NCBI GenBank assembly: GCA_019456255.1
Contig: VRUG01000017.1
Span: 1 to 64,000, forward strand
Reading direction: 5' to 3'
Source of the DNA: Planctomycetota bacterium
GTDB taxonomy: Bacteria; Planctomycetota; Phycisphaerae; Sedimentisphaerales; Anaerobacaceae
DNA length: 64,000 bases
Notes under the pieces: generated by a model
Told to the model about the DNA's origin: nothing
Databases searched by the model: none
What the model saw: only the letters and a program-made list of their open reading frames with translations
Part shown: positions 8,660 through 25,222 of the stretch, one piece after another
Position numbering within the stretch: position 1 is the first letter of the stretch
Layout of the letters: every line of letters begins with the position of its first letter
Translations under genes and position numbers: made by a program

Positions 8660-8663
8660 TTGG

Positions 8664-11207
8664 TTAGACCTTCACGACTTTCACTCGGGTAACTGCATAA
8701 AATGCTGTAGAGCCGCTCAATCGGTCATAATCAGCAGGAATTATTTCATTGTTGCTTCCGCCTCTGGCTACTTTGCCGTATTCTTTAGCTGCAACTCTGC
8801 CATATGCCCAGTGTCCCTGACCATAGCATTTCGCGACTGTCCCGGGTCTAACGCCTTCCCAAAGTTTTGCGTGACATTCAAGCTGGCCTGTCTTGGAGAT
8901 TAATTTAATATTGTCGCCATCTTTGATACCAAGTTTTTTGGCATCAATTGGATTAAGTTTTGCTACATCGTCCCATGCTACATCGCCTGGGTCGAGGTCC
9001 TTAAATTCCTGATACCACGGGCAGTTTGCCGAACGTCCTTCACGGTTAAGTCTGGACTTGTAGTCAACGTGTATGAATGGGAATTCCTTTTCGCTGCCCC
9101 ACAGATATGGTTCTTCATAATGTGGTACGAAGGCCTGTTCGCCTCTTGCCTGATAGTTACATGTTTCAAGAATATCGTCGACAGTCGTCTTATACTTTTC
9201 GGCATGCGCGGCAAGAGCGGCTTTTAGTGTTTCACTATAGAATTCGAATTTGTGTGTCTTGGTTTTCATCTTGCCCCATCGTTTTCTGTATGGGTATGAA
9301 CTGGAATTCCAGACACCGACTTTTTTGAATTCTTCCCAACCGCTAAATTTGTCTCCGCCCTTATGAGCAGCTGGGTCCCAAAGATTATGAGTAGCATATT
9401 TCAGCGAGTAAAGAGCAAACTCTTTCTCGGTCGTTGCCGATTTACCGGTCTCCGGATCCTTATATTCGCGGTAGTGTCTTTGAAGATTATCAAAACCCTT
9501 CTCTGCGAGCTTTTCAGCAAGGAGCCACGGTATTTCAGTCTCGTCGATGTGGACATCCCAAACCGGCTTGATAACAGGTTCTAATAGTGTGACATGGCGA
9601 TGGCCATTACCCATAGACTTGACATAGCCCCACTTCTCAAACATATGGTGCACCGATGGCAGTACGATGTCTGCGAAATGCGTGAACTCCGATGCATTCG
9701 TAGTGATATGTACGAGGAAAGGTATTTTGGTCAATGCTCTTTCCCATCTTTCGGTCTGCGGGCATGAGAAAGTAAAGTTGTTCATGTAAGCGATAGCAAC
9801 CTTGATCTCATTGGGGTCCTCATTCAAAATACCCTCGGCGGCGTTGTTCGTAATGACAGCACTTCCGGGTTTACCTTTTTTCAAAGCAGGGAACTCTTTT
9901 CTCCCGCGATGGTCAATCTTTTTATGCTTCTTTCCCTTCTTTGCAATGTCATCCATAAAATCATCAGGTTTAGGGAAACTTACAGTGTATTCTTTATTAC
10001 CTGCCAGCGTTCCGCCGACATTATCCACCGAACCGACCAGTCCATTGAGAGCATGTGCAGCCATCGAACTATATCCACCTCTGACCTGCATAGCCGGTCC
10101 GCCTCCAACCCAGCAGATAGCACGAGGCGCTGCTTTGCCAAAATCCGTAGCAACTTGCACGATTTGTTTTACCGGCAGTCCTGCTTTTTCTGCAGCCCAT
10201 TCAGGGGTCTTGTCTTTGAGTTCAATATTCCACCATTTTACTAAGCCGCTCGTGTACTTTTCCGTAAAGTCTTCTTCATTTACCGTTTGCCCCGGGATGA
10301 ATTTGTTGACACCGTCATTGAAGTCACCAACGAACTCTTTGTGCCACAATCCTTCAGTAAGAAGAATATGTGCCATACCGACGGCAAGTGCGCCATCCTG
10401 GCCCGGTTTAATGGGCATCCACTCTCCTGCTTTGGCTGCAGAAGCGGAGAACCTCGGGTCTACAACGGCCACTTGGGTATGATCGAGGACATCGCCCCAG
10501 GCACTGAGATAGTATGATACTTGTCTGTTGGCTGAAAGCGGGTCGGCACCCCAGAGAATAATATATCGAGTATTAAGCACATCGTATTGTCTGTAACTCC
10601 ACAGCCCTTCAGTATAGTATGGGCCAAACTTTTCGGCTTCGGCACAAATGGCACTATGCGAAATATTGTTAGGTGAGCCGATTATCTTGGTCATGCGGTC
10701 ATAAAGAACATCACGCATATAAGAATAACGTCCTCTCATAAGCATATATTTGTGGGTCTCTTTATTCTTGCGCAACTCCAGAATCTTGTCAGCTATTGTA
10801 TCGAGCGCCTCATCCCAGGTAATCGGAACAAACTTCGGGTCCTCATTTCTACCCTTTTTAGGATTCGTACGCTTCATGGGTGTCTTAGTTCTATCGGGGT
10901 CATAAACCTGCTGTAAACTCATATGGCAGCGAGAACAGCAGTTTCCACGATTGACCTTTGAATTAGGATTGCCCCTAACTTTAATTGCCCGTCCGTCAAC
11001 AACGTAGACCTGTACCGAACACCATGAAGTACATCCCTGACAGGTTGTAGATTTCCATTGGCCTGGTTCTTTAGGCTTGGATCCGGTAGTCTGGGCAAAG
11101 GCCTTCAACGTCGGTTGGAAGACTGTGCTAAGTGCAGCAACAGCTGCCGTTGCCGTCGCGGCTTTTAAAAAGCTTTTACGAGTAATTTTGTTATCGTGTT
11201 CTTTCAT
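8664..11207 (-). CDS. Arr/Psr-clade molybdopterin oxidoreductase, catalytic subunit
   Basis: This 847-residue periplasmic enzyme belongs to the DMSO-reductase family, in the group with arsenate (ArrA), selenite and polysulfide/thiosulfate reductases. A Tat signal (ITRKSFLKAA) comes first. A [4Fe-4S] site follows (Cys56, Cys59, Cys63 and Cys90 or 91), then RGRY at 158-161 and SHSAICAEAEKFGP, whose Cys188 should ligate molybdenum. Bis-MGD-binding motifs (WGADPLSANRQ, DPRFSA, KPGQDGA) and a C-terminal molybdopterin dinucleotide domain complete it. RGRY and the surrounding sequence look to me most like ArrA, but no arsenic-resistance genes are near, so the acceptor could equally be a sulfur or selenium oxyanion. 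It is expressed after the ferredoxin and anchor genes. Confidence 0.87.
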   Translation of the reverse strand: MKEHDNKITRKSFLKAATATAAVAALSTVFQPTLKAFAQTTGSKPKEPGQWKSTTCQGCTSWCSVQVYVVDGRAIKVRGNPNSKVNRGNCCSRCHMSLQQVYDPDRTKTPMKRTNPKKGRNEDPKFVPITWDEALDTIADKILELRKNKETHKYMLMRGRYSYMRDVLYDRMTKIIGSPNNISHSAICAEAEKFGPYYTEGLWSYRQYDVLNTRYIILWGADPLSANRQVSYYLSAWGDVLDHTQVAVVDPRFSASAAKAGEWMPIKPGQDGALAVGMAHILLTEGLWHKEFVGDFNDGVNKFIPGQTVNEEDFTEKYTSGLVKWWNIELKDKTPEWAAEKAGLPVKQIVQVATDFGKAAPRAICWVGGGPAMQVRGGYSSMAAHALNGLVGSVDNVGGTLAGNKEYTVSFPKPDDFMDDIAKKGKKHKKIDHRGRKEFPALKKGKPGSAVITNNAAEGILNEDPNEIKVAIAYMNNFTFSCPQTERWERALTKIPFLVHITTNASEFTHFADIVLPSVHHMFEKWGYVKSMGNGHRHVTLLEPVIKPVWDVHIDETEIPWLLAEKLAEKGFDNLQRHYREYKDPETGKSATTEKEFALYSLKYATHNLWDPAAHKGGDKFSGWEEFKKVGVWNSSSYPYRKRWGKMKTKTHKFEFYSETLKAALAAHAEKYKTTVDDILETCNYQARGEQAFVPHYEEPYLWGSEKEFPFIHVDYKSRLNREGRSANCPWYQEFKDLDPGDVAWDDVAKLNPIDAKKLGIKDGDNIKLISKTGQLECHAKLWEGVRPGTVAKCYGQGHWAYGRVAAKEYGKVARGGSNNEIIPADYDRLSGSTAFYAVTRVKVVKV

Positions 11208-11264
11208 TCTGAAAACCCTTCTTTCTGCGCTGAATTAGATTTCATCGCGGTTATCATAAAAGTT

Positions 11265-12134
11265 TTATACCGTCCCCTTAGTGCTTTTGGTGGCACTGGG
11301 ATTGAATTCTCTCACGTAAAAGACTTTGGGTTCTGTTCCGAGATGTTCTTTCAGTCTCCTTGGGCTGTATTTTACCAATAACTTGCTGATATGGCTGTCA
11401 GGGTCGTTCAGGTCGCCCATTATTCTGGCGTTGCAGGGACAAGAGATGACACAGTGAGGAAGCAGGCCCTTGGTGACACGGTGGTCACATAATGTGCATT
11501 TCTCGACAATACCTTTATAATGCAATCCTGAACCCTCTCTAAATTCCTCTCGTGCGGGATTGTAGTTAGGAATCACATTGCCCTTGACTTTCTCGGTCAT
11601 TTCTTTTGGCGAAGATGTACAGCCTTTAATTAAGGCATCATCGCTTCTCCAATGAGGATGCGTTTCTTGAATATGAATAGAGATAACACCATAGGGACAC
11701 ATAGCTATGCAGGTTCTGCAACCGATGCACTTTTCAGGGGAATGCATAGTAATATCGCCATATCCTTTGTGCATAGCTTTAGTTGGGCAACCCTTTACGC
11801 ATGGAGCGTTCTCGCAGTGATTACACAGCGTTGGGAGGGATTTGAACCCAACGTTTGGGAACTTACCCACGGTAGTGGTTTCAACTTTTGCCCATCTATT
11901 TCCCCGCTGGACATTGTTTTCACTCTTACAGGAAATGGCACATCCCCCGCATCCGGTACAATGCTGTAAATCTATTACCATTGCCAATCTTTTACCTTTC
12001 GATTTGTTCTTTGCCGAAACAGTCGTAGCTCCTGCCAGAACCGCTACTCCTGCCCCTCCTGCTTTGAGCAAGTTCCTTCTTGATATCTTTTTTTCTGATA
12101 ATTGTGTTTTATTTTTATGTTCCAAAGATTCCAT
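11265..12134 (-). CDS. Four-cluster ferredoxin subunit of the molybdoenzyme (PsrB/ArrB-like)
   Basis: A 289-residue electron-transfer subunit carrying four [4Fe-4S] clusters. Cysteine groups are seen at CTGCGGCAISC, CNHCENAPCVKGC, CIGCRTCIAMC and CTLC...CVISC, the classic DmsB/PsrB arrangement. Unusually for several relatives it has its own Tat signal (SRRNLLKAGGAGVAVLAG), which shows that it is exported, either alone or with the catalytic subunit. It passes electrons from the NrfD anchor to the molybdenum subunit. The AAGGAG ribosome site stands upstream of the ATG, and the gene starts 20 bases after the anchor gene. Confidence 0.9.
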   Translation of the reverse strand: MESLEHKNKTQLSEKKISRRNLLKAGGAGVAVLAGATTVSAKNKSKGKRLAMVIDLQHCTGCGGCAISCKSENNVQRGNRWAKVETTTVGKFPNVGFKSLPTLCNHCENAPCVKGCPTKAMHKGYGDITMHSPEKCIGCRTCIAMCPYGVISIHIQETHPHWRSDDALIKGCTSSPKEMTEKVKGNVIPNYNPAREEFREGSGLHYKGIVEKCTLCDHRVTKGLLPHCVISCPCNARIMGDLNDPDSHISKLLVKYSPRRLKEHLGTEPKVFYVREFNPSATKSTKGTV

Positions 12135-12154
12135 TGGCTATCTCCTTTTAGTAG

Positions 12155-13003
12155 CTAGATTAGCTGGCCACCAACTACCACCATATAACGCATAGTGTAT
12201 ATTCCGATTAATATTAATATCGAAGCAAGAGCGTGCAAAAAGACGCTTCGTTTTGATCCCAGCAGTATTATCGCCGGCACAATTGCCCCGAGGATGACCT
12301 CTACTCCCAGGAAAAGAACGCCTATCTCGCCTGAGAAGAGGGACTTAGCAACAGCGATGGATTCGGTACCTCCGTTAAAGAGCATCAGCACTTCCGTAAG
12401 GACCAGGCCTATTTCAATTATTACCAACCATGCGACAAGTCTGCCAAGTCTTACGAGAAGACCCATATTTTTGGCAGTTGCCGAAAACAACATCACAACT
12501 GCAATGCCGGAAATGATCGATCCATTGACAAACAATACTGGCAATAACGTAGAGTGCCAGAGCAGTTTGTCAGGAGCCCGAGCTATATGAACAGCCGTAT
12601 ACAGTGCGGTAAACAGAGCAAAGAATAATCCCACACAGCCAAATAGCTTTGCAGTTTTCTCCTTGCCCATGAACAAAAGAGCGGTGTAGATAAAATTCAG
12701 CAAACCGAAGATGTTTAGAAGCCACACTCCCCATGAAAGCATGCTTTGTGGATTAAAAGCGGTAAAAACCCGCCATGCTCTTAATGGGTTGCCAAGATGA
12801 ATGAGCAGCATGAACATTCCTATCCCTAACGCAAGCAGTGATAAAATCGCGCCCGTTTTGGCCAGTGGTTTAAATTCCTGTTTCCAGCGGTAGTTTGCCA
12901 TTACAGAAAACATAAATGCTCCTGCACTAACGCCGCCAAAAAAGAAATACATTACGATCATCCAATCATAGGCTAAATGCACAGCCGTTCCTTGTTCGGA
13001 CAT
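12155..13003 (-). CDS. NrfD/PsrC-family membrane anchor, quinol oxidase subunit
   Basis: A 282-residue membrane protein with about eight hydrophobic helices. It matches NrfD/PsrC proteins, which take electrons from menaquinol in the inner membrane and hand them to the periplasmic ferredoxin subunit. The N-terminal YDWMIVMYFFFGGVSAGAFM and LLIHLGNPLRAWRVF segments are typical. As first gene of the four-gene operon (anchor, ferredoxin, catalytic, chaperone) it shows that the complex is quinol-linked rather than soluble. An AAAGGAGC ribosome site precedes the ATG. Confidence 0.9.
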   Translation of the reverse strand: MSEQGTAVHLAYDWMIVMYFFFGGVSAGAFMFSVMANYRWKQEFKPLAKTGAILSLLALGIGMFMLLIHLGNPLRAWRVFTAFNPQSMLSWGVWLLNIFGLLNFIYTALLFMGKEKTAKLFGCVGLFFALFTALYTAVHIARAPDKLLWHSTLLPVLFVNGSIISGIAVVMLFSATAKNMGLLVRLGRLVAWLVIIEIGLVLTEVLMLFNGGTESIAVAKSLFSGEIGVLFLGVEVILGAIVPAIILLGSKRSVFLHALASILILIGIYTMRYMVVVGGQLI

Positions 13004-13602: not shown

Positions 13603-14970
13603 TTATTCTTCCGAAAGTCTCTGCACCCTGCTGTCAAAACTAACCCCCTTGGCAAAGGTAAACCAAAGCCTCGTACCCTCACCCTCCTGGCTCTCGACAC
13701 CTATCTCGCCACCGTGATGGTCAACTATCTGCTTTGCTATCGACAAGCCCAGCCCGGTACCGTCTTTTTCAATCTTGCGAGCGTTGCTGCATCGATAAAA
13801 TTCATCAAACACCTTATCAATCTCATCTTTGGGAATCCCGATACCAGTATCTATAATCTCCACCAGCACTGAATGGTCGGTACTCTTGGCATTTATCCTG
13901 ACTTCTCCATTCTCAGGGGTATACTTAATACCGTTAAGCAGCAAATTCATAATCATCTCCTCTATGGAAAACTGGCTGCCGTATACCTTGCCTATTGAAG
14001 CCTCAATGTTAACGTCCAGTCGTATCTGCTTCTCTTCCGCACGATTACTAACCGAAGCTAACGCACTTTCAATTGTTTTATCAAGAAAGAAAAAATCCAT
14101 CTCCAACTTGTCACTTAGCCGCATCCGAGTGAGTTTCAACAGCGTCCGTACAAACTCGGTCAGCTTCCTCGTACGATTATGCGCACGATTAACAAAGTCC
14201 GACTGCTTCTCGTTAAGCGGCCCTACCAGCTTGTTTACCACTACATCAAGACAACTCTGGATCGCTGCCAAATGCCCCTTAATGTCATGAGTCACACGCA
14301 AAACGTACTCATCTTTTATACGGTCCTTCTCAAGAAGCTGCTTATTAGCCTCTATGTGCGCCTGCTCGGCGCGTTTAAGCCTGGTCGCAATATAACTCGC
14401 CATATATATCACAAGGTACATAGCCGTTGAAAATGCTAAAAACGTACCAAGAACAAAGAAACCCTCCTTATAAAGACAATGAGGTACAAAGCCGAGAAGA
14501 CAATAATGCGGGATTAAATCTGTATATTCAAGCAATAGCAGGGAACCAAAAAGAAATATTGCCAGACTCCCTTGAAAATAACTCGCGCGAACCGATAACA
14601 GAATACTTGAGATTATCATGTGAAATATGAAATAAAATATAAATGGATTTTCTATCCCGCCGGAAAAATGTAACACAAAGGTCAATATCAATAAATCTAT
14701 GGATATTTGAAAATTGATTATCTTTTTGACTGTATTATAAGGAACTTCACGATTGACGCGGCTCACGTTATTTAACAGCATCAACGTTATTGCATTATAC
14801 AACGCAAGCAAAAACGCGATGCAGTACAATGCGGAATCCTGAATATCCATCCCCCAAATGGTGCTGCTGAAATAGGTACCAACAGCTACTGATACCGTAG
14901 CTATCCAACGAAGTCTGATTAACCAGTATGCCCGTTGTACGAGACGGGTGTTTATCGACACTGGCTTCAT
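13603..14970 (-). CDS. Membrane sensor histidine kinase
   Basis: A 455-residue sensor kinase. About six hydrophobic helices in residues 15-195 form a membrane input domain without a large periplasmic part, so it may sense something inside or at the membrane. The HisKA segment contains the phospho-accepting His228 in RVTHDIKGHLAAI. The HATPase domain shows the N box (NLLLNGIKYTPENG), the G1 box (IDTGIGIP), F box and G2 box (DGTGLGLSIAKQI). Its start is one base from the stop of the response regulator gene, which makes them a cognate pair. It closes the operon that contains the prenyl and radical SAM genes. Confidence 0.92.
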   Translation of the reverse strand: MKPVSINTRLVQRAYWLIRLRWIATVSVAVGTYFSSTIWGMDIQDSALYCIAFLLALYNAITLMLLNNVSRVNREVPYNTVKKIINFQISIDLLILTFVLHFSGGIENPFIFYFIFHMIISSILLSVRASYFQGSLAIFLFGSLLLLEYTDLIPHYCLLGFVPHCLYKEGFFVLGTFLAFSTAMYLVIYMASYIATRLKRAEQAHIEANKQLLEKDRIKDEYVLRVTHDIKGHLAAIQSCLDVVVNKLVGPLNEKQSDFVNRAHNRTRKLTEFVRTLLKLTRMRLSDKLEMDFFFLDKTIESALASVSNRAEEKQIRLDVNIEASIGKVYGSQFSIEEMIMNLLLNGIKYTPENGEVRINAKSTDHSVLVEIIDTGIGIPKDEIDKVFDEFYRCSNARKIEKDGTGLGLSIAKQIVDHHGGEIGVESQEGEGTRLWFTFAKGVSFDSRVQRLSEE

Positions 14971-14971
14971 G

Positions 14972-15370
14972 TCAAGTCTTCTTAGGCAAAAGCTTATCTA
15001 CTTCAGCTAACAACAATTCCATATCTACTGGTTTGTCAAGAAAACCATCAACCGGAAGCCACGTCGGGTCGCCTGCCGTCGACTTAAAGTTGATTCCAGT
15101 CTTGTCCTTAACCCCTGTCAACATTAATATTGGGATGTCCTTATAAGCCGCATCTTTCTTCAACTCGCGGGCCATTTCAAATCCATCCTGCCACGTCGAC
15201 ATCATCACGTCCAATATTATCAAATCAGGATTCTCGGATTTGATTTTGGACATCCCCTCTTCTTTTTCGCTGGCCGTCACTACCGTATAATCTTGACTTT
15301 CCAACATTGTCTGCAACGCACAGGTAATGTCTGCATCATCATCTACTATCAATATCTTGCCATTTCCCAT
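14972..15370 (-). CDS. Single-domain response regulator (CheY-like)
   Basis: A 132-residue receiver domain with no output domain. The acidic pocket (VDDDAD, residues 9-14), the phospho-acceptor Asp54 in LIILDVMM, the switch Thr in MLTGVKD and the Lys in LDKPVD are all present. It starts three bases after the prenyl synthase gene and is directly followed by the membrane kinase. With no DNA-binding domain it must act through protein contacts or pass phosphate on, so the pair need not control transcription of this operon. Confidence 0.9.
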   Translation of the reverse strand: MGNGKILIVDDDADITCALQTMLESQDYTVVTASEKEEGMSKIKSENPDLIILDVMMSTWQDGFEMARELKKDAAYKDIPILMLTGVKDKTGINFKSTAGDPTWLPVDGFLDKPVDMELLLAEVDKLLPKKT

Positions 15371-15373
15371 TTC

Positions 15374-16381
15374 TCACCTCACCAAATCAAAAAAAGTTCT
15401 CTTCGTGATAAACTCCGCTAATTCATTCAAGCTCCTCTTATAAGCCGAATCCGTGAGACCTACAAGCCTATTTTTCGCCTCCCCGATATAAAATGACACC
15501 GTCTCATAGGTCAAATCCGCCGCTTTGGAATTAAGAAACAACTCCCTTATCTTACCAAGCCCCGCCCCGTCAACCGTCCCGCCAAGAATACGCTTCAATT
15601 CAGCGCACTGCGATTCGCTGGCAACTTCCATTAACGTTAATAGAGGCAGTGTTATGTCGCCTGCCATTACGTCCTGGCCAGGCTGCTTACCAAGTGACTT
15701 CTCCTTGCTTATTATATCTTCGCAGTCATCTATTAGCTGAAACGCTATTCCAAAATTAAGACCATACTCTTTCAATGCCTCACCATTCTCACTACCAGGA
15801 TTAGCTATGATCGTACCTGCGTGACATGATGCCGCAAAAAGTGACGCTGTTTTCTTCTTGATCACAACGATATAATCTTCTTTAGATAAATTGAAATTAT
15901 GACGCTCAAAAACATGTGTCAACTCACCATCGCACATCGCGTGAACAGCCTCACTCATACACGAAAATAAATCCGAATTCCGACATTCCGCGATTAACTC
16001 AAACGCTTTTGAATAAATATAATCGCCAACTGCGATAGATATGTTGTTGCCCCAACGGGCATTGATACTAGGCTTACTGTGACGCATCGTTGCTTCGTCA
16101 AGTACATCATCGTGAATTAAAGATGCCATGTGGACCAATTCAACTGCCGTCGCTATCTTGATAAGAACGTCACTATCACAAACGTCACCATTGCCCGCAG
16201 ACACCGCCTTGCCGCAAAGAATTACAAGAGCAGGACGAGCACGCTTGCCGGGTGATTGCAACAGAAAATCACCTATCTCAAGAATCGACCGATTACTCGA
16301 CTCTTTGATAGAAGAGGTCAATGCCGATTCCATCTCTTCCATCTCTGCTGCTATAGGCTGATAAATCTCGCGTAACTCCAT
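15374..16381 (-). CDS. Trans-polyprenyl diphosphate synthase
   Basis: This 335-residue enzyme builds the long isoprenoid tail of respiratory quinones by adding isopentenyl units. The two metal-binding aspartate motifs are DDVLD (91-95) in LIHDDVLDEATMRH and DDCED in FQLIDDCEDII near residue 215. GKRARP near 45-50 binds the substrate diphosphate. It lies five bases after the UbiA gene, and this pairing is what would be expected for quinone tail synthesis and attachment. Chain length cannot be read from the sequence. Confidence 0.92.
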   Translation of the reverse strand: MELREIYQPIAAEMEEMESALTSSIKESSNRSILEIGDFLLQSPGKRARPALVILCGKAVSAGNGDVCDSDVLIKIATAVELVHMASLIHDDVLDEATMRHSKPSINARWGNNISIAVGDYIYSKAFELIAECRNSDLFSCMSEAVHAMCDGELTHVFERHNFNLSKEDYIVVIKKKTASLFAASCHAGTIIANPGSENGEALKEYGLNFGIAFQLIDDCEDIISKEKSLGKQPGQDVMAGDITLPLLTLMEVASESQCAELKRILGGTVDGAGLGKIRELFLNSKAADLTYETVSFYIGEAKNRLVGLTDSAYKRSLNELAEFITKRTFFDLVR

Positions 16382-16386
16382 TTAGT

Positions 16387-17268
16387 CTAATCCCACAAAA
16401 AACCGCTGCCTAATGAAAATGCTATCACTACATGACTCAATACCATCGTGTTAACCGCCAGACGAAACGCCTTCGGGTCATCATAGTCCTTTTCGATAAT
16501 TCGTAAACTCTTTAATATCCACGGAACAAGAATCATAGCAAATATTGATGAAAATGGAATAGCTTGAACTATTACCCCAATCACCAAAAGTAAAAATACC
16601 ACACCCAAGCTCAACTTAAACAATACAATCGCCTTTACTTTCCCAAGACGAACAACAAGATTACGTTTGCCGACCAGGCGGTCCTGATAGTAATCCGGTA
16701 TCTCATTGAGAATCGCAAGGCTAAATATCGACAACCCGCTTATCAATGAAACAAATACAGGCACTATCGATATGCTTTTAGTCTGAATATAATAGCTGCC
16801 CAATAACATAAACGGGCCGTAACAAAGAGCTATCACCGTCTCTCCAAATCCGCGATACGCCCATCGAATCGGAGGACCTACATAAAAATATGCACCCATA
16901 AAACCGACAAATGAAAATGCCATGACCAGCCACCCCGTCGTATACGTTAGATAAAGTCCTATCAAAAACGCTGCGAATACCGCAGATATCCCAAACGCAA
17001 AGAAACTCTTAGGAATGTTTACCTCTTCCAATGAAAAAATACGGTCCCCGCCTTCCTTGGCATCGAAATACTCATTAAAAAACTCGACCGCAATGAGAAT
17101 GAAAAGTATCCCCGTAAAACCTACCCAAAACTGAATCCAATTCAGGGCCCCATGCAATCCAAATGCGATAGCCTGACCTAAAAAAAAAGGCAGAAGACCA
17201 GCGAAAAGAAAGAACCGATATCGTATCAGCCTTATTAAATTAAAGGGTTTTGCAAAACTATACCACAT
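16387..17268 (-). CDS. UbiA-family prenyltransferase
   Basis: A 293-residue membrane protein with about eight helices. UbiA enzymes join a polyprenyl chain to an aromatic ring; MenA- and MqnP-type members act in menaquinone synthesis. The first aspartate motif reads NEYFDAKEGGD (about 66-76) and the second NEIPDYYQDRLVGKRNLVVRLG (near 190). No other menaquinone genes are adjacent. It sits 31 bases after the radical SAM gene and five bases before the polyprenyl synthase, so its aromatic substrate could be a menaquinone precursor or, less conventionally, something made by the radical SAM system. Confidence 0.88.
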   Translation of the reverse strand: MWYSFAKPFNLIRLIRYRFFLFAGLLPFFLGQAIAFGLHGALNWIQFWVGFTGILFILIAVEFFNEYFDAKEGGDRIFSLEEVNIPKSFFAFGISAVFAAFLIGLYLTYTTGWLVMAFSFVGFMGAYFYVGPPIRWAYRGFGETVIALCYGPFMLLGSYYIQTKSISIVPVFVSLISGLSIFSLAILNEIPDYYQDRLVGKRNLVVRLGKVKAIVLFKLSLGVVFLLLVIGVIVQAIPFSSIFAMILVPWILKSLRIIEKDYDDPKAFRLAVNTMVLSHVVIAFSLGSGFLWD

Positions 17269-17299
17269 ATTTAAAGGATATTCTCAAAACCAGTACAGG

Positions 17300-18316
17300 T
17301 TAAATCTCTATCCAATTATTGGATTCACATAAAAGCTTCGGGTCAGCAACAACCTTGTTAGTAAAATCAATCACGTCAGGATGCCTCCACGCCTTTTGGT
17401 AATCTTCCCAAACCTCCTGAAGACTCGACTTGGTCAAGTCACCACAAAGGAACGGCAGCGGGCCTATAAGCTTTACCTTACCATTCGGTATCACCAACAA
17501 ACTCGCCGAGGGACATTCGAGACGATATTTCAATTCCTCAACCACATCGTAAGGATAATGATAAATCTTCATCTTGCCTTCATACTCTTTCGTCTTTGCC
17601 TGAAGCGTCTCAAAGAACTTGGCGTACTCTTCTTCAGTTGAACATAAAATATCCCAGTTCTTCGCCGCTCGCCCAATTCGCATCATCTTACCGGTATAGA
17701 AACCGTAAACACCCAGCGAGTATGCAAGGTCTATGATGTCACCGATTTCATGAATGTTAAACTTCGTCGGTACAAATACTATTTCGGTATTAACGCCGTA
17801 CCCTATCAAACGCTTACAGGCCTCGACCGCTTTTTCCCAGTCGCCGGCCAATCGCAATTGCTCGTGCGCACCTGATGTCGCGCCATCAAGACTTATCTGA
17901 ACTGAACGCATCTTCAAATCCGCGAATCTGCGAGCAACTTCGTCGTCAATAAACTCACCGTTAGTCTCTATCTTCAAACTTATATCGTTACTCCTGATAT
18001 ATTCGCACACATCAAAAATATGCGGACATAGCATAGGCTCACCGCCCGAAATTGCTACGTACGGTATATCAAGTTCAACTATCTGCCTGCAAAAATCAAG
18101 TGCCTGCTCCTTGCTCATCTCGTCGGGCATGCTGTGACCGGCTTCTTCACAACAGTGAAGACAACCCAAATTGCACTCAGCGTTCAACTGCCATGCGATA
18201 AAAAGAGGCGACTTGTAATCTTCAAATGCCTTACCTTCAAGAACCGAACGCAGTTCCTCATCGGGACCCGGATTCGTCAAACGACTCAAATTCTTTCCTT
18301 CTGATATAACACCCAT
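17300..18316 (-). CDS. Radical SAM peptide-modifying enzyme (PqqE-like)
   Basis: A 338-residue radical SAM enzyme. The [4Fe-4S]-SAM motif is CNLGCLHC (Cys48, Cys52, Cys55) and the SAM-binding ISGGEP follows near residue 94. The C-terminal region has LECPSASLLVIPNGKV, FLCGDL and a last LLCESN, which is the layout of a SPASM/twitch domain but with fewer cysteines than the seven of full SPASM. Relatives such as PqqE cross-link or otherwise modify a ribosomal peptide presented by PqqD. Here PqqD is encoded eight bases upstream and a candidate peptide further up. AGGAG precedes the ATG. Confidence 0.87.
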   Translation of the reverse strand: MGVISEGKNLSRLTNPGPDEELRSVLEGKAFEDYKSPLFIAWQLNAECNLGCLHCCEEAGHSMPDEMSKEQALDFCRQIVELDIPYVAISGGEPMLCPHIFDVCEYIRSNDISLKIETNGEFIDDEVARRFADLKMRSVQISLDGATSGAHEQLRLAGDWEKAVEACKRLIGYGVNTEIVFVPTKFNIHEIGDIIDLAYSLGVYGFYTGKMMRIGRAAKNWDILCSTEEEYAKFFETLQAKTKEYEGKMKIYHYPYDVVEELKYRLECPSASLLVIPNGKVKLIGPLPFLCGDLTKSSLQEVWEDYQKAWRHPDVIDFTNKVVADPKLLCESNNWIEI

Positions 18317-18324
18317 ATTGACTC

Positions 18325-18576
18325 CTATTCGATGATTAAGTTACTTGCTTTCAATGCATCGGTAAACTCGACAACATCTTTTTCTATCGCTTCGCGCTCG
18401 CCGTCATAGTTACTGCTAAGCTCATCAACTATCTCTGACAACTCTTTGCCATCTTTTACTAATTCCAATATGTCGCCGCCGTGCTCGCTGACGACAAATA
18501 TCTTTTCTGTCAACGTCTCAAAGACGACCGTTCCAAATTTCTCTTTCCGAATTTTTGTGTGCTCTGTAAGGCGCAT
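18325..18576 (-). CDS. PqqD-family RiPP recognition protein
   Basis: An 83-residue PqqD-like protein. Members fold as a small winged helix that binds the leader of a precursor peptide and offers it to a radical SAM enzyme. The pattern GTVVFETLTEKIFVVSEHGGDILELVKDGKELSEIVDELSS is the typical beta hairpin, turn and helix order. It has an AGAGAGG ribosome site and is followed directly by the radical SAM gene. It is a free-standing protein, not fused to the enzyme. Confidence 0.88.
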   Translation of the reverse strand: MRLTEHTKIRKEKFGTVVFETLTEKIFVVSEHGGDILELVKDGKELSEIVDELSSNYDGEREAIEKDVVEFTDALKASNLIIE

Positions 18577-18640
18577 TTAAACCTCTCTTTCTGATGCGGA
18601 GTTTGACTATTACCCTTCAACCTTAAAATAGCTATATTAG

Positions 18641-18671
18641 ATGGCTTGTGCTCTTTACCCACACAAGCCAT
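18641..18671 (-). promoter_or_regulatory. Ten-base-pair hairpin between the peptide gene and pqqD
   Basis: ATGGCTTGTG (18641-18650) pairs perfectly with CACAAGCCAT (18662-18671) around an 11-base loop. On the minus-strand RNA it lies between the short peptide gene and pqqD and is not followed by a T run. It is therefore more likely a stabilising or partial-termination structure, of the kind that lets a precursor peptide be made in excess over its enzymes. Confidence 0.55.
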
Positions 18672-18787
18672 ATGGTCTCACAAATTCTATTTTCAATTTT
18701 CTATTACATAAACAGAAACTACAACGGTCATGCAGTGAAAAACAAATCTACGAAGTTACTTAAATGCCATTCAACCACACTTATCGA

Positions 18788-18931
18788 TTAAGTAAACCGA
18801 ATGTAAGGCTGAGCCATTACTTTACCGGATACGTCCTCAAACTTAGGCTTTTGCCACAAACCTTTTGACTTAGTATCTTTAACCTGGGTACCTGCCGATC
18901 CTTTTGCATCAACTGCCTGTTTCTTTTCCAT
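18788..18931 (-). CDS. Putative PqqA-like RiPP precursor peptide (47 residues)
   Basis: A short gene that is easy to miss. ATG at 18931 has AAGGA eight bases upstream. The product is lysine-rich at first (MEKKQAVDAK) and ends LWQKPKFEDVSGKVM then AQPYIRFT. The W-x-K-P-x-F-x-D/E block (Trp26, Lys28, Pro29, Phe31) is the signature with which PqqA-like precursors begin, so the likely recognition and modified parts lie between Trp26 and Thr47. It has no signal peptide and no cysteine. The PqqD gene is 211 bases downstream in the same direction. Glu32, Asp33, Tyr43, Arg45 and Phe46 are candidate modified residues. It lacks the Glu-x3-Tyr of true PqqA, so PQQ itself is unlikely. Confidence 0.75.
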   Translation of the reverse strand: MEKKQAVDAKGSAGTQVKDTKSKGLWQKPKFEDVSGKVMAQPYIRFT

Positions 18932-19087: not shown

Positions 19088-19550
19088 TTAAAAATAATCC
19101 ATCGCTTTGATTTTTTTAAGTTCAATTTCGTCATGTTCCTCCCACTGGATTAGACTTTCAAAGAGCCCTTTAACTTCCTGGTCTATCGGCTGTTCAACAA
19201 CCTGACGGTAAAATTTCACCAAACATTCATCGAATTTGATTGCTGCATCAAGGATTTCGCCAGCAGTCGCATCTGCCGATATATCAACGCCCTCAAGACA
19301 ATGACAATCGGCACCCTGAGGGTCGTATTGAAGCGGTGTATGGCATATCCGGCTAATACGCTCAGCACTTTCAACAGGAAGCTTAAATATTGCGATGTGT
19401 GTTCTGCGACGGTGACGGCTCATATAATCTGCCGGCAATCGAACACCCTCGCGGCTACTCTCATGCGATACCTTCGCATAAAAATCCGGCCAGAATTCCC
19501 TCAAATTCTTCCGCTCTCTCAAGCACTTGCGCTACATTGGTCATTCCCAT
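19088..19550 (-). pseudogene. Ferritin/rubrerythrin-like protein, interrupted by a frameshift
   Basis: From ATG 19550 (GGGAGG seven bases upstream) the frame reads MGMTNVAQVLERAEEFEGILAGF and then hits a stop. Removing one base from the A5 run at 19480-19484 (T5 on the coding strand) joins it smoothly to FYAKVSHESSREGVRL and about 120 more residues, ending FESLIQWEEHDEIELKKIKAMDYF. The helical pattern with E..E at the start and EEHDE at the end resembles ferritin-like di-iron proteins. The gene lies 27 bases after nqrF in the same direction. It may be a true pseudogene, a sequencing error in the homopolymer, or a slippage site. The second frame alone (to 19522) has no proper start. Confidence 0.7.
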
Positions 19551-19577
19551 AGCACAGCCTCCCAAATTTTATTGTAC

Positions 19578-20699
19578 TTAGAACTTATCGTAGAATATAT
19601 CGTCCGGCTTGATGCCTTTTTCCTCCAATATTCGCGTTACTGCTTCAATCATAGGAGGCGGGCCGCACAAAAACGCCTGTCGAGCCAAATCTGCCTCAAG
19701 GAACTTATCGGCTGAAAGATGGATAAAGCCGGTTTCTCCGTCCCACTGCTCACCTTCTCCAAGCTCATCACTCAACGCGTAAACTACATGAAAATTCGGA
19801 TGTTTTTTAGCTAATTCTTCAAATTCCTGAAGATAAAACACATCTGCCGTCGTCCTGCAGCCAAAGAATAGCCAGCACGAACGGTCAGGCCACTTATCAT
19901 AAAGCGTGTGAATAATATTCTTCATCGGAGCCATTCCGCAACCGCCGCCAACGCAGATAATTTCTACATCAGGGTCATCACTAAGTTCAAACTCTCCGTA
20001 AGGGCCGGTAAATATCACAGGGTCGCCCTCTTGCAAATTATGAAGATAAGTCGAACCGATTCCGCCTGGAACAATGCGAACATTCAATTCAACTACATTC
20101 TCATCATAGGATGGTGAACTTATAGAGTAAGCCCTGAATATTGGCCCTTCATCGGACGGCGCCTGGATCTGAACATACTGGCCTGGCCTTTGAGAAATTT
20201 CCGCAGGCTCATTCAAACGCATACGAATCTCTTTGATATCATGAGTCAATACTATAGAACTCTCAACCGTCGCAGAGAACATCTTTACACTCAGCAGCTC
20301 TTCAGGTATCTGAACAAAAATATCTTCGCGAATCTTAACCTGACATGCCAAGCGAACATCAGCACGAATCTCCTTGCGGTCAAGATAAGGAGTCTCCGTC
20401 GGAAGCAATGGGCCGCCGCCTGCCGTCACGGTAATCTTACAATGACCGCAAGAGCCCTTACCGCCACACGCTGACGGGATAAATATCTCATTGGAATATA
20501 ATGCCGAAAGTAATGTCTGGCCCCCGTCAACCTCTATAGGCTTCTCACCTTTATTGATATCAATCTTGCAGATGCCATAGTTTACAAGAAACTGCTCAGC
20601 TACTATCAACAACGCTGACAATGCTACCGCCAAGCCGGCAAAAGATAACACCGACCAAAGATAAAATTTAATTCCTGTTACTGCTAAAAGACAAACCAC
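19578..20699 (-). CDS. nqrF: Na+-translocating NADH:quinone reductase subunit F
   Basis: The NADH-oxidising subunit, 373 residues, slightly shorter than the usual 405-410. One N-terminal membrane helix (about 12-38) is followed by a [2Fe-2S] ferredoxin domain (CGGKGSCGHC and a later LACQV) and a ferredoxin-reductase-type FAD/NADH domain (FRAYSISSP, GGCGMAPMK, FLCGPPPMI). The frame opens just after an in-frame TGA, so the first possible start is GTG 20699 with GGAG ten bases upstream. It is the last intact gene of the operon and follows nqrE by 16 bases. Confidence 0.93.
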   Translation of the reverse strand: MVCLLAVTGIKFYLWSVLSFAGLAVALSALLIVAEQFLVNYGICKIDINKGEKPIEVDGGQTLLSALYSNEIFIPSACGGKGSCGHCKITVTAGGGPLLPTETPYLDRKEIRADVRLACQVKIREDIFVQIPEELLSVKMFSATVESSIVLTHDIKEIRMRLNEPAEISQRPGQYVQIQAPSDEGPIFRAYSISSPSYDENVVELNVRIVPGGIGSTYLHNLQEGDPVIFTGPYGEFELSDDPDVEIICVGGGCGMAPMKNIIHTLYDKWPDRSCWLFFGCRTTADVFYLQEFEELAKKHPNFHVVYALSDELGEGEQWDGETGFIHLSADKFLEADLARQAFLCGPPPMIEAVTRILEEKGIKPDDIFYDKF

Positions 20700-20715
20700 T
20701 TTTCATTTTCTCCAT

Positions 20716-21303
20716 TTATTGAATTGAAACCATTCCTGCAAAACCCATGAACGCCATCGCCAAAACACACGTCACTATCATCGCTATCGGCACGCCCCTG
20801 AAGGGCTCCGGTATATTACTGTAACGCATCTTTTGCCGCAGACCCGCCATCATTATTATCGCAAGCATCCAGCCTAAACCCGAACCAAATCCATATCCTA
20901 CCGATTGAATGAAATTGTAATCACGGATTATCATAAACAGCGATGCGCCTAAAATCGCACAGTTCACCGTTATCAAAGGCAAAAAGATTCCCAACGCAAA
21001 ATAAAGCTTCGGGCTGAACCTCTCAATGAACATCTCTACGAACTGAACGAACGCTGCTATGACCGCGATAAAAACAATAAATGTCAAATGGTCCAGACCA
21101 AGAGGCTCTAGTACGAAATAATATATCGCGTAATTAATAATCGACGTCATCGTCATAACAAATGTCACTGCGGTACCAAGCCCTATCGCTGTACTTATCT
21201 GCCCGGAACATGCTATGAAGGAACACATCCCCAGAAAGTTCGTCAGCAGAATATTATTCGTCAGTACCGCCGCAACTAAGATTATTATGGCTGAAGTTTC
21301 CAT
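20716..21303 (-). CDS. nqrE: Na+-translocating NADH:quinone reductase subunit E
   Basis: A 195-residue membrane subunit with six helices, homologous to RnfA and NqrD. The cysteine in GMCSFIACS is one of the ligands for the iron-sulfur cluster shared with NqrD inside the membrane. VNCAILGASLF is the matching half-site. Its ATG overlaps the stop codon of nqrD by one base (TAATG), showing translational coupling. Length is normal. Confidence 0.94.
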   Translation of the reverse strand: METSAIIILVAAVLTNNILLTNFLGMCSFIACSGQISTAIGLGTAVTFVMTMTSIINYAIYYFVLEPLGLDHLTFIVFIAVIAAFVQFVEMFIERFSPKLYFALGIFLPLITVNCAILGASLFMIIRDYNFIQSVGYGFGSGLGWMLAIIMMAGLRQKMRYSNIPEPFRGVPIAMIVTCVLAMAFMGFAGMVSIQ

Positions 21304-21968
21304 TATTTCTTCTCCTCTTCAGGCTCGGGGCCCTTGATGGCATTAAATATCGCTATCACTATCCCCAATGCGAAAAACGCTCCGGGAGCTAAAATCATCA
21401 ACTGGTTAGGCGTATACCACGATTCCGACAAAAGCTTAATACCAAGAACTTCACCGCTGCCCAAAAGCTCACGGAAAAATCCAATTATCGCAAGAACCAC
21501 CGCATAACCAAAACCATTCGCGAATCCGTCAACCATAGAAAGTATAGGCGGGTTCTGAAGTGCGAACGCCTCCGCCCTGCCCATGATAATACAGTTGGTA
21601 ATTATCAATCCAACATAAGGGCCAAGCTGTTTGGACATGTCCCAGTAAAATGCCTTCAAAAACTGGTCGAACAAAATTACAAACGTCGCGATAATTGCAA
21701 CCTCCGCTATCATTCGAATCCTATGGGGCGTGACATTTCGCAATAAGGAAACAAACAAATTCGAAAATACACCTACAAAGATCAACGCGATTCCCATCAC
21801 GATTGAGTTCTCTAATTTATTAGTCACCGCAAGAGCAGAACATATTCCCAACACCTGAATCGCAAGTGGGTTACTCGTCCACGCGCCCTCTTTCAGGGTC
21901 AACATTCCCTTACCGCCGCATAAACCTTTGCTGACGCATGGGCCGCATACTGGTTGGTTATCTGCCAT
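21303..21968 (-). CDS. nqrD: Na+-translocating NADH:quinone reductase subunit D
   Basis: A 221-residue six-helix membrane subunit. LGICSALAVTNK and TNCIIMGRAEAFA carry the conserved cysteines of the intramembrane cluster shared with NqrE. The N-terminus has an extra segment CGPCVSKGLCGGKG with three cysteines, which I do not expect in NqrD and which could bind metal or be fortuitous. The ATG overlaps the nqrC stop by one base. Confidence 0.93.
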   Translation of the reverse strand: MADNQPVCGPCVSKGLCGGKGMLTLKEGAWTSNPLAIQVLGICSALAVTNKLENSIVMGIALIFVGVFSNLFVSLLRNVTPHRIRMIAEVAIIATFVILFDQFLKAFYWDMSKQLGPYVGLIITNCIIMGRAEAFALQNPPILSMVDGFANGFGYAVVLAIIGFFRELLGSGEVLGIKLLSESWYTPNQLMILAPGAFFALGIVIAIFNAIKGPEPEEEKK

Positions 21969-22591
21969 TATTTACCGCTCTCCTGTACTATCTTTTCCGA
22001 TATCTCATCGAGCATCGCTTCGACCTTGTCACAAGTCATCGTCGCGCCGGTTATAGCGTCAACTTCATTGATCCCGCCCTTGGCACCGCCGCTGCGAATA
22101 GTAATCCCGACGTTACCTTTTTCATCAACAATTTTCTTACCCTTAAACTGGTCACGGAACCAATCCGCCGCAATCTCACCGCCGAGTCCGGGCGTCTCTT
22201 CCTGCTCATAGAACGTAACACCGCGAATCGTCCTCATATCAGGCGCCAATGCGAGAAATCCCTTAATAGTTCCCCACAATCCAGGCCCCTCAAATGCGAC
22301 ACCAATCGTCTCTTGCCCCTCAGCTCCGGCCTTAGGAACAAAACGGTAAAGCTCTAACTCACCCTTTGTCTCCTGAACGACATTCGCCTTAAATACCTCA
22401 ACCAATTCCTGAGCTGTCGCTCCTTCGGGATAAGGCACCTGCAGAACATTCAAAATATTAAGCTTTATCTCTGCTTCACGGTTGGCTTCCTTATACGGCG
22501 CGGTAAAACTCGACGCCGCTGTCAATAGCAATGAGCATACCGTACCAAGAGCCGCTGCGTAAAATAATGTATATGCGTTGTTACCCTTCAC
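21968..22591 (-). CDS. nqrC: Na+-translocating NADH:quinone reductase subunit C
   Basis: A 207-residue subunit with one N-terminal membrane helix and a periplasmic FMN-binding domain. The flavin-attachment motif DAITGATMT (near residues 180-188) contains the threonine that carries covalent FMN. No apbE gene for the flavin transfer is in the window. The gene overlaps nqrB by 11 bases. It is somewhat shorter than the typical 250-residue NqrC. Confidence 0.92.
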   Translation of the reverse strand: MKGNNAYTLFYAAALGTVCSLLLTAASSFTAPYKEANREAEIKLNILNVLQVPYPEGATAQELVEVFKANVVQETKGELELYRFVPKAGAEGQETIGVAFEGPGLWGTIKGFLALAPDMRTIRGVTFYEQEETPGLGGEIAADWFRDQFKGKKIVDEKGNVGITIRSGGAKGGINEVDAITGATMTCDKVEAMLDEISEKIVQESGK

Positions 22592-23669
22592 CGCGAAGCC
22601 TCCTCAAACGAAATCCTACTACTATCTCATCAAGAATCGGGGCGATTATATTACCAAGCAATATCGCGAACATAACACCTTCGACATAACCTGTAAAATT
22701 ACGTATCGATATCGTCACTACTCCGATTATTATTCCGTAAAACCATTTGCCTGTGTTTGTCACCGGACTTGTCACTGGGTCGGTCGCCATAAAGAACGCC
22801 CCGAAAAGCATCCCGCCCGCAAACAAATGCCATAACGCTGGTGCAAAACGACCCGGGTCCGAATGATGAAGAACTCCTGCCATCACCCCTGCCGAAAGCA
22901 AAATACTAACAACCGTCCGCCAGTTCGCGACACGAGTAAACAGCAAAAACACTCCGCCAATAATTATCAGTGCCCCTGATGTCTCACCGACACTGCCTGA
23001 TGTCGTCCCTAAAATCATATGAGAAACTTCTACTACACTGCCCTGCTTGGCCAACACCAAAGGCGTCGCCGAACTAATCGCGTCAACACTCGAAGCTGTC
23101 ACGTACTGCATCAATCTGCCGACGCCCGCTTCGCCTGCCGCTACCCAGTTACTCGACATCGCCGCAGGATAAGCCAATGCCAAAAAGCAGCGGCCTATCA
23201 ACGCAGGATTAAATAAGTTCCGGCCTGTACCCCCGAACAGCTCCTTACCGACAAATACACCGAAAGCTACACCAACACCTACCATCCATAATGGCAGCGT
23301 AGGAGGCAATATCAACGGAAACAGCATACCAGTCACCAAAAAGCCCTCGTTGATTTCCTCCTTGCGAACCATCGCGAAGATTACTTCAACCACCCCGCCA
23401 ACTGCATAAGATACTATTATCATCGCGATAATCTGAAGACCGTAAAAATACAACGATGCCAAAACACACGGTATCACACCGATAATTACCATACTCATAA
23501 AACGCTTAACATCGATCGGGTCGCGAACATGAGGTGCCATCACCGTCCGTGCCGCTGGTGCGAAAAAGAAATTCTCCATCGCCTCGTACACAGGCTTAAA
23601 AGCCTTAAACTTTCCGCCTTCATGAAATGACGGGCTTACTTTCTCGAATATATCTCGTAATATTTTCAC
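22581..23669 (-). CDS. nqrB: Na+-translocating NADH:quinone reductase subunit B
   Basis: A 362-residue membrane subunit with about ten helices that conducts sodium and carries covalent FMN. The attachment region reads ISSATPL, equivalent to the SGATPL of studied NqrB, with the threonine conserved. GRNLFNPALIGRCFL and FFMATDPVTSPV are characteristic RnfD/NqrB segments. Its start overlaps the nqrA stop by four bases. Confidence 0.94.
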   Translation of the reverse strand: MKILRDIFEKVSPSFHEGGKFKAFKPVYEAMENFFFAPAARTVMAPHVRDPIDVKRFMSMVIIGVIPCVLASLYFYGLQIIAMIIVSYAVGGVVEVIFAMVRKEEINEGFLVTGMLFPLILPPTLPLWMVGVGVAFGVFVGKELFGGTGRNLFNPALIGRCFLALAYPAAMSSNWVAAGEAGVGRLMQYVTASSVDAISSATPLVLAKQGSVVEVSHMILGTTSGSVGETSGALIIIGGVFLLFTRVANWRTVVSILLSAGVMAGVLHHSDPGRFAPALWHLFAGGMLFGAFFMATDPVTSPVTNTGKWFYGIIIGVVTISIRNFTGYVEGVMFAILLGNIIAPILDEIVVGFRLRRLRGEG

Positions 23670-25078
23670 TCGGCACTCTCCTGAGCTTCCTGTTCACGCT
23701 TCAATGCCTCTAAGCGAGCCTCTTCTTTTTCCTGTTCAATCTCGATCTTAGCATCGAAAAATTGCTGCTTAAGCTCGATCTTTGACGGACACACAAACGA
23801 ACACAATCCGCACTGAACACACAAATCAACTCGCGACGCATCCGCTTCTTCAATCAAATCGCTATACAAATATTTATGAATACGATGAGGCAATATCTCT
23901 GCAGGACATACCTCCGCGCAGTAATTACATGACACGCAGGGACGCCCCTCACCGCGAAATGCCGTCGTAAACCTTTCACGGAAATTCTTACGCAATGAAC
24001 TCAAAAAACATTCGCTGTAAGACTGACGGTCCCAGCCGGGACGAACGAACCCTAAAAACTCCCGCTCCTTCAATTCCGAAATTATCGTCAAACCCCGGCA
24101 TTCACTATCAACACCCAGAGCATCTATAGCCATCATCTCACCGCTTAGCATACCATTTATAATAACACGGTAATCGTAACCGGATGCATATGTATCAAGA
24201 ATCTTCTTCAATGGATAACCAGGCATCACGCAGATATGAATCGGTGAATGAACTCTCGGACCGCCAACTGACAAAATCCGCAACAAACAAGGCTTACTCA
24301 TTGTCAATGCTCGGTCTACTGCAAGAACGCCCTCGGTCTTAATACTCCAAACAGGCCCCGCTTCTTTTTTAAGCCCAAACTTTCGAGCCAATATATTAAA
24401 GTTATCGTAAGGATACCTCATCGGCACCTCTATCAACTTAACCCACGCGTAGCCGCGAATATGTTCACGAACGCGAGTCGCAAACGCTGACGTTATATCA
24501 GGCATTATCAAATATATAGGCTGATATTCCAATAGCGACTGAAGATGTTCAAGACCACGAGTAAACTGCAGCAAACGATTGTGCAACTGAGCGTCACCGC
24601 GAGCAACAAATGGCTCAAGACTTACAGTCGATACTATTACTGCCTGGGGTGTACCAAGCGGGTCAGGAACATTGCCTGAATAAGCTTCACTGAAAAATTC
24701 CCACGCACCAAGATTCAATAACTTATATCGCTTAATGCCCCCGGCACCCATCTCCTGAACTATATGAGACATCTCATCTTCGTCGGTATGAGGATGCTCT
24801 TCGTGACGAGCTATTTCATCAAGAACTATATAACCAGCTGCGACATCAAGACGAACCTTACCAGCACGAGGCGCCAGCAGTGGTATTGAATAATTATCAG
24901 GGTCAGTCGCAAGAAATTCTCCGGGCTCAACATTGTCGCCTTCAGTTACGCGAACATCACTGAAATTAAAACGCTTCGTTTGCAAAGGCAAATAAAGAAC
25001 CTTAGGCTCTGGCATAACCTTAACCAGCCCCTCAGGCCGACCTTCAAGCAATACGTTAAAACCACCTTGGAATTTCAT
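23666..25078 (-). CDS. nqrA: Na+-translocating NADH:quinone reductase subunit A with two [4Fe-4S] motifs
   Basis: The first gene of the pump, 470 residues, binding quinone on the cytoplasmic side. The N-terminal biotinyl-like and middle regions follow NqrA (FQGGFNVLLEGRPEG; APRAGKV). The C-terminus has CVSCNYCAEVCP and CVQCGLCSFVCP, two complete [4Fe-4S] motifs like those of RnfC; well-studied NqrA proteins have lost most of these cysteines. A charged helix of about 30 residues ends the protein. ATG 25078 is preferred to TTG 25081. The other five subunits are clearly NQR rather than RNF (no rnfB, nqrF present). Confidence 0.85.
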   Translation of the reverse strand: MKFQGGFNVLLEGRPEGLVKVMPEPKVLYLPLQTKRFNFSDVRVTEGDNVEPGEFLATDPDNYSIPLLAPRAGKVRLDVAAGYIVLDEIARHEEHPHTDEDEMSHIVQEMGAGGIKRYKLLNLGAWEFFSEAYSGNVPDPLGTPQAVIVSTVSLEPFVARGDAQLHNRLLQFTRGLEHLQSLLEYQPIYLIMPDITSAFATRVREHIRGYAWVKLIEVPMRYPYDNFNILARKFGLKKEAGPVWSIKTEGVLAVDRALTMSKPCLLRILSVGGPRVHSPIHICVMPGYPLKKILDTYASGYDYRVIINGMLSGEMMAIDALGVDSECRGLTIISELKEREFLGFVRPGWDRQSYSECFLSSLRKNFRERFTTAFRGEGRPCVSCNYCAEVCPAEILPHRIHKYLYSDLIEEADASRVDLCVQCGLCSFVCPSKIELKQQFFDAKIEIEQEKEEARLEALKREQEAQESAE

Positions 25079-25222
25079 CAATTCGTTTCTCGAAAAATAT
25101 ACGCTTTAAAACACCAAAAAACGGGAAATAGTCCAATACAAACTAACTATCTTAACATTAGCCCAGCATTCTATACAAACTCACAGTGGGATTCAACTAA
25201 ATATCCCATCTTTTTTACGCAT

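Follow-up and report, generated by a model that had tools for sequence, protein, structure and literature searches.

Why would genes for the modification of a small peptide be joined to a gene for the prenylation of aromatic rings? This question is raised by a stretch of 64,000 nucleotides from a Planctomycetota genome (contig VRUG01000017.1; here, the window), the minus strand of which carries an open reading frame (ORF) of 47 residues for a PqqA-like precursor peptide (18788..18931, with AAAGGA upstream of its ATG and ending in WQKPKFEDVSGKVMAQPYIRFT), followed by a PqqD-type peptide chaperone of 83 residues (18325..18576; PF05402, E=3.5e-12), a radical S-adenosylmethionine (SAM) enzyme of 338 residues (17300..18316; PF04055, E=1.8e-23) and an intramembrane prenyltransferase of the UbiA family of 293 residues (16387..17268; PF01040, E=4.5e-26). 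A trans-polyprenyl diphosphate synthase of 335 residues comes next on the same strand (15374..16381; PF00348, E=4.9e-63). The original prediction, which placed the radical SAM gene, UbiA and the synthase in one operon, is confirmed as to their order, with gaps of exactly 31 and 5 bases. We lean, if only slightly, towards reading the first four genes as a dedicated biosynthetic cassette, in which the radical SAM enzyme and PqqD would modify a PqqA-like peptide and UbiA would prenylate it, giving a membrane redox cofactor.

The order peptide, PqqD, radical SAM enzyme and UbiA recurs in seven Planctomycetota genomes from four families, namely the window's own (G000), G004, G034, G054, G137, G317 and G621, which are drafts, at least some of them assembled from metagenomes. 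Three orthologues of the window's radical SAM protein, 71-77% identical to it, were found in relatives, and a fourth was obtained from a public contig collection (the same record as G621, and the sole cassette-bearing close relative of the enzyme there); upstream of each of the four are a PqqD gene and a peptide of 46-49 residues, and a UbiA gene follows. Moreover, a DNA pattern for MAQPYIRFT was matched in six of 397 genomes of the class and the reversed-pattern control in none. Two further genomes came from this search, G317 and the more distantly related G137 (family f16), and all four genes stand in the same order in each; G621 came from a profile search across the phylum (392 genomes). 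When a profile of the cassette UbiA was run against the same 397 genomes, the scores were bimodal, six being above 450 bits and all others at or below 136 bits, and those six genomes are exactly the six with the peptide.

The surroundings of the cassette differ between genomes. For example, NqrF, of a Na+-translocating NADH:quinone oxidoreductase (NQR), lies immediately upstream of the peptide in G317, 16 bases away, and a single gene separates the two in G000 and G004. In G034 the cassette is flanked by a multihaem cytochrome and Mo-reductase region, in G054 by enolase, and in G137 by Rrf2 and ferredoxin genes. Because the same order is kept in seven genomes with different flanks, and because peptide and UbiA coincide in 6/6 cases, the four genes very likely act in one pathway, and the predicted tie between peptide modification and UbiA is thereby strongly supported. 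The precursor ORF, PqqD and the radical SAM gene are adjacent and conserved in all seven genomes, which is the arrangement that identifies a ribosomally synthesized and post-translationally modified peptide (RiPP) with PqqD-type recognition. Also, the UbiA of G054 (family f2) groups in the tree with that of G034 (f1, the family of the window), which suggests, from this phylogeny, that the cassette has moved between families as a unit. In the most distant cassette, that of G621, the UbiA gene (L004/L116, 2317-3095) is broken on an assembly of 3.7 kb, with about 45 codons missing plus a stop, a defect that may have arisen when the assembly collapsed on this short contig.

Other neighbouring radical SAM and UbiA genes (in G033, G037, G043, G057 and G059) were rejected as cassettes, their UbiAs being of different clades, or PqqD and peptide being absent. 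Within G033, the locus L089 (5047-9725) has a UbiA gene and, after it, genes for a SPASM radical SAM enzyme and two M16 peptidases, with no PqqD and no recognised peptide. Among UbiAs outside the cassette clade, that of L089 is the closest to it (94/73), and the locus is possibly a related system.

The peptide ends in VMAQPYIRFT in all eight copies found in the seven genomes, and this ten-residue core is encoded by codons that vary synonymously at eight positions and non-synonymously at none. A frozen core is typical of cofactor precursors, whereas defensive RiPPs are variable. A comparison with PqqA reveals a shared layout, all eight cassette peptides and all eight annotated PqqA sequences compared having 22 residues from Trp to the C-terminus, with W1, K3, P4, D8 and Y18 in register. 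In a column-permutation test, this correspondence has p=0.0015 with Trp fixed, 0.034 with W, K and P fixed, and 0.15 with Y18 fixed as well. The Tyr is kept at 18 from Trp in all eight peptides, and all eight have Met at the position of the PqqA Glu14. Against the curated PqqA models, no match was found in Pfam at E<=1 or in NCBIfam at E<=1e-8. Judged by its residues, the peptide is PqqA-like in layout and is not PqqA, either by model or by cross-link pair. A search for hairpins in the spacer between peptide and PqqD gave no consistent signal. An orphan second copy of the peptide, with an identical core, is present in G034 (L113, 7156-7302), where it lies downstream of an IS630-like transposase and adjoins a sigma-54-type kinase/regulator pair.

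The window's PqqD scores 41.1 bits with TIGR03859 (cut-off 46) and is 41-64% identical to the PqqD of the other cassettes; in G137, both PqqD and UbiA have drifted to about 40% identity with those of the window. In the radical SAM enzyme, the cluster motif CxxxCxxC is kept (C47, C51 and C54). The outline of a SPASM domain is kept too, its cysteines being mostly lost, with only C290 conserved in the C-terminal part, and SPASM (PF13186) gave no match to the window's enzyme. Its best NCBIfam model is that of the mycofactocin maturase MftC (TIGR03962; 125.8 bits, cut-off 265), the PqqE model TIGR02109 gives 60.9 bits (cut-off 381), and the nearest solved sequences are SkfB and PqqE. Pairs of radical SAM matches near the NQR of relatives were discarded, as they resemble the haem-branch enzymes AhbC, AhbD and NirJ and stand beside hemD and hemL.

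For the prenyltransferase, membership of the UbiA family is clear (PF01040, 92 bits; cut-off 34), and both Asp-rich motifs, NEYFDxxxGGD and NExPDYYxD, are kept in the cassette UbiAs (six sequences). Placed with MenA and MqnP in a tree of 60 UbiA proteins, they cluster with neither and form one clade of their own (support 100/99), which sits within a MenA-like super-clade (95/93). The MenA of E. coli and the MenD-linked MenA make up another branch (99/92), apart from the cassette clade, and genomes with the futalosine pathway have UbiAs that fall with E. coli UbiA, far away from that clade. The cassette UbiAs are under every NCBIfam cut-off. With the MenA model TIGR00751 (cut-off 102.15), four of them score 80.2, 68.2, 61.6 and 47.2 bits, whereas the local MenA controls pass at 234.1 (L058), 125.8 (L070) and 123.6 bits (L071). 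The cassette enzyme thus shares with MenA the family, both motifs and the super-clade, and departs from it in its separate clade, in its scores (47-80 bits versus 124-234 for local MenA) and in its strict tie to the peptide cassette, the peptide genes being present in every genome that has this clade. Also, the sole other UbiAs in G000 and G034 are DPPR-like and EboC-like. Most f1 and f2 genomes have a MenA-like UbiA with the motif NDYFDHxSGND (at L061, L070, L078, L086, L087 and other loci of this kind), which has no quinone genes as neighbours, and show no Men or Mqn markers; the member tested, L070, is over the MenA cut-off.

For a pathway built from these parts, PqqD would hand the PqqA-like peptide over to the radical SAM enzyme for modification of the core, most likely at the Tyr that aligns with the cross-linked Tyr of PqqA. 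The modified aromatic part would be released by a cellular peptidase, or would still be bound to the peptide, and UbiA would prenylate it in the membrane. Such a product would be invariant in the manner of a cofactor, redox-active and bound to the membrane, where NQR and quinol-linked reductases would use it. The modified residue, the cleavage of the peptide, the prenylation of a peptide-derived ring and the redox role are all steps that we infer. It is likely that UbiA prenylates the product of the modified peptide, and the context of the genes favours a membrane redox carrier over any other single reading of that product.

How would such a product compare with known systems? Peptide-derived redox cofactors, such as pyrroloquinoline quinone (PQQ) and mycofactocin, and the membrane quinones made by UbiA enzymes have so far been separate worlds. 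With the PQQ system, the cassette has in common a short peptide with a Trp-x-Lys-Pro leader, the 22 residues from Trp to the end and Tyr18, as well as the pairing of a PqqD chaperone with a radical SAM enzyme. However, Glu14 of PqqA, the cross-link partner of the Tyr, is replaced by Met, the cassette peptide has an N-terminal extension of ~24-27 residues before the Trp, and the radical SAM enzyme is far under the PqqE cut-off and without a SPASM match. The cassette has UbiA, and neither PqqB nor PqqC is found in or adjoining it (the rest of the genome was not searched). Mycofactocin is likewise a redox cofactor derived from a peptide with a conserved C-terminal core containing Tyr, and MftC is the best model for the cassette's radical SAM enzyme. 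On the other hand, this enzyme is under the MftC cut-off and its SPASM cysteines are mostly lost, MftD, MftE and MftF are not in the cassette, a prenyltransferase takes the place of the glycosyltransferase, and the peptide ends in YIRFT, with its Tyr fifth from the end, whereas MftA ends in a Val-Tyr pair. We infer that the product is akin to these peptide-derived cofactors, with an added prenylation step. To our knowledge, no peptide-derived redox cofactor with such a step has been described, and no description of UbiA together with a radical SAM RiPP system was found in the open-access literature searched.

A different comparison is offered by the non-canonical lipoquinones. Methyl-plastoquinone and caldariellaquinone belong here, the pathway of the latter being still uncharacterised (PMC13386864), as does a polyketide quinone of Streptomyces (PMC9927152). 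The likeness, drawn for the cassette product from genes alone, is that of membrane electron carriers outside the ubiquinone and menaquinone pathways; the differences are that none of these quinones is reported to have a ribosomal peptide as its source or to be made with a radical SAM enzyme and PqqD, and that they occur in other lineages. A more specific proposal can be held only tentatively: the cassette may make a new class of respiratory lipoquinone, with a redox-active head group cut from the PqqA-like peptide and a tail added by UbiA, which would replace menaquinone between NQR and reductases of the ArrA/NrfD type in Planctomycetota without known menaquinone pathways.

The genes around the cassette in the window bear on this proposal. 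Upstream and in the same direction, as had been predicted, is NqrA-F of the NQR type (25081..19578, minus strand). Its NqrA (23666-25081, minus strand) has an extra C-terminal ferredoxin domain with two clusters and scores far under the NqrA cut-off (121 versus 321 bits), both as in the NQR of relatives. A ferritin-like gene lies between NqrF and the peptide (19088..19565, minus strand), in two frames with a frameshift near 19490 in the assembly. Its protein has no Pfam family above cut-off, and an intact homologue is found at the same place in G004, G008 and G137. Downstream of the synthase, and still on the minus strand, are a response regulator receiver of 132 residues (14972..15370) and a membrane histidine kinase (13603..14970) with a RegB-type GGIENPF motif (14661..14641). 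The heptapeptide GGXXNPF is the quinone-binding site of RegB (PMC10525716). The response regulator also comes after the cassette UbiA in G004 and G034 and stands within the NQR block in G008 and G137, and the kinase recurs in the NQR block of other genomes, both of relatives that carry the cassette and of relatives that do not. As G008 has the whole block of NQR, ferritin-like gene, response regulator and histidine kinase without a cassette, the kinase motif marks the locus, not the cassette, as quinone-related. In G137, the last gene of this block is an ordinary MenA-like UbiA, at the position that the cassette occupies in the window's genome.

Further downstream, a gene for tRNA-Arg on the opposite, plus strand (13524-13597) separates the kinase gene from a quinol-linked reductase operon on the minus strand (8060..13003). 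This operon encodes NrfD (13003..12155; E=8.8e-33), a ferredoxin subunit (12134..11265), an ArrA-like molybdopterin subunit (11207..8664; 1299.7 bits with the ArrA model, cut-off 1600) and a TorD-like chaperone (8659..8060). As for the polyprenyl diphosphate synthase, the prediction that it belongs with the prenylation genes does not hold for the conserved unit. It adjoins the cassette UbiA in the window's genome only and is absent beside the other cassettes, and NQR-synthase neighbourhoods are also found in G009 (55% identity) and G032 (50%), both without a cassette. The synthase is accordingly set aside as a cassette member and counted as an accessory of some NQR neighbourhoods, which would supply the prenyl donor at the window's locus and not at other cassettes.

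The original prediction had named menaquinone synthesis by UbiA and the synthase as the plain alternative. The observations that would have refuted the prediction in favour of it were not borne out on any point, as UbiA clusters with neither MenA nor MqnP, the window's genome shows no MenD or MqnA/D, and this UbiA is always accompanied by the peptide genes. In the window's genome, no MenD or MqnA/D and no other MenA-type UbiA were found, other men and mqn genes not having been searched. More broadly, MenD over cut-off and MqnA/D (PF02621) are absent in G000, G004, G034 and G054, in a search that did not include MenB, MenF, MqnC and MqnE. MqnA/D is also absent in G317 and G621 and present in G137, MenD not having been tested in these three. 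NQR is present in G000, G004, G034, G317 and G137 and absent in G054 (G621 was not searched); it was rejected as a strict marker of the cassette, many NQR genomes being without one. In several highly complete relatives, among them G008 (L099) and G045 (L097), a MenA-like UbiA stands next to a methyltransferase of the UbiE/MenG type, with neither MenD nor MqnA/D. These relatives may have a divergent pathway missed by the markers, or an unrecognised naphthoquinone route in the order.

An association with NrfD, a membrane subunit linked to quinol, speaks for a peptide-derived membrane redox cofactor: NrfD is over cut-off in 5/7 cassette genomes and in 0/21 relatives without a cassette (Fisher p=2e-4; 4/6 and p=9e-4 when G137 is excluded), in a comparison whose 21 relatives were hand-chosen as genomes without recognised menaquinone genes. 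The closeness of NqrF to the peptide in G317, G000 and G004, the lack of MenD over cut-off and of MqnA/D in four cassette genomes and the RegB-type motif in the block count in the same direction. Several observations weigh against such a cofactor. G054 has the cassette and neither NQR nor NrfD. Nine relatives with NQR have neither the cassette nor the two markers (G007, G008, G009, G012, G013, G017, G023, G032 and G035), so that NQR alone does not require the cassette. Moreover, these NQR relatives, some with the MenA-UbiE pair (G008), indicate that an unmarked naphthoquinone route may exist, and missing markers therefore do not prove missing menaquinone. A second MenA-like UbiA is present in G004, G054 and G317, G137 has a second MenA-type UbiA plus an MqnA/D-family gene, and no peptidase was found in the cassette.

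The alternative explanations differ in how they divide the four genes. At one extreme, the genes would be chance neighbours that share only a transcript, as the short gaps would allow if there were one locus only. This is not borne out by the same order in seven genomes with different flanks, by the 6/6 coincidence in 397 genomes or by the UbiA of G054 (f2) grouping with that of G034 (f1) as if transferred as a unit, and we give the idea almost no credence. A division into two products is a more serious rival, if an unlikely one: the peptide would give a soluble cofactor like PQQ or mycofactocin, and UbiA would be the MenA of this lineage, serving a naphthoquinone with divergent or unrecognised early steps. 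The place of the cassette UbiA in the MenA super-clade agrees with it, as does its being the sole MenA-like protein in G000 and G034, and such a route is made plausible by the MenA-UbiE arrangement of the G008 type without MenD and MqnA/D. Nonetheless, the UbiA clade never occurs without the peptide, nor the peptide without the clade, the cassette clade is more divergent than any local MenA, and G004, G054 and G317 already have a MenA-like UbiA that passes the MenA cut-off or resembles one that does.

If all four genes do act on one compound, this might be something other than a redox cofactor. The radical SAM enzyme would cross-link or oxidise the core and UbiA would add an isoprenoid, giving a prenylated RiPP anchored in the membrane for signalling, protection or competition. 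Peptide, PqqD and radical SAM enzyme are indeed the standard RiPP set, with neither a peptidase nor another ring-forming enzyme in the cassette, and both the cassette of G054 without NQR or NrfD and the orphan peptide of G034, with its neighbouring transposase and sigma-54-type two-component pair, would suit this explanation. We regard it as rather unlikely, for different families share one and the same core, whereas variation is usual in competitive peptides, no conserved exporter or immunity gene accompanies the cassette, and the linkage with NQR and NrfD is left unexplained. Also, known UbiA acceptors are small aromatics or similar, and a peptide acceptor would be new for the family. It is very unlikely that the cassette replaces the early Men or Mqn steps, with the peptide-derived compound, as precursor of a menaquinone-like ring, finished to a known quinone by general enzymes. 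This would fit the lack of MenD and MqnA/D in G000, G004, G034 and G054 and the MenA-like nature of UbiA, yet the cassettes share no conserved decarboxylase, methyltransferase or UbiE, an MqnA/D-family gene is also present in G137, and the carbon economy of a 47-residue peptide as sole source of a bulk quinone tells against it.

If the reading of the cassette as the source of a prenylated, peptide-derived redox cofactor is true, it would add prenylation to RiPP chemistry and possibly a new electron carrier to respiration. The four genes are a concrete target for expression, and the short invariant core is a target for mass spectrometry. Finally, the cassette bears on the respiration of those Planctomycetota that have NQR and ArrA and no recognisable menaquinone genes.

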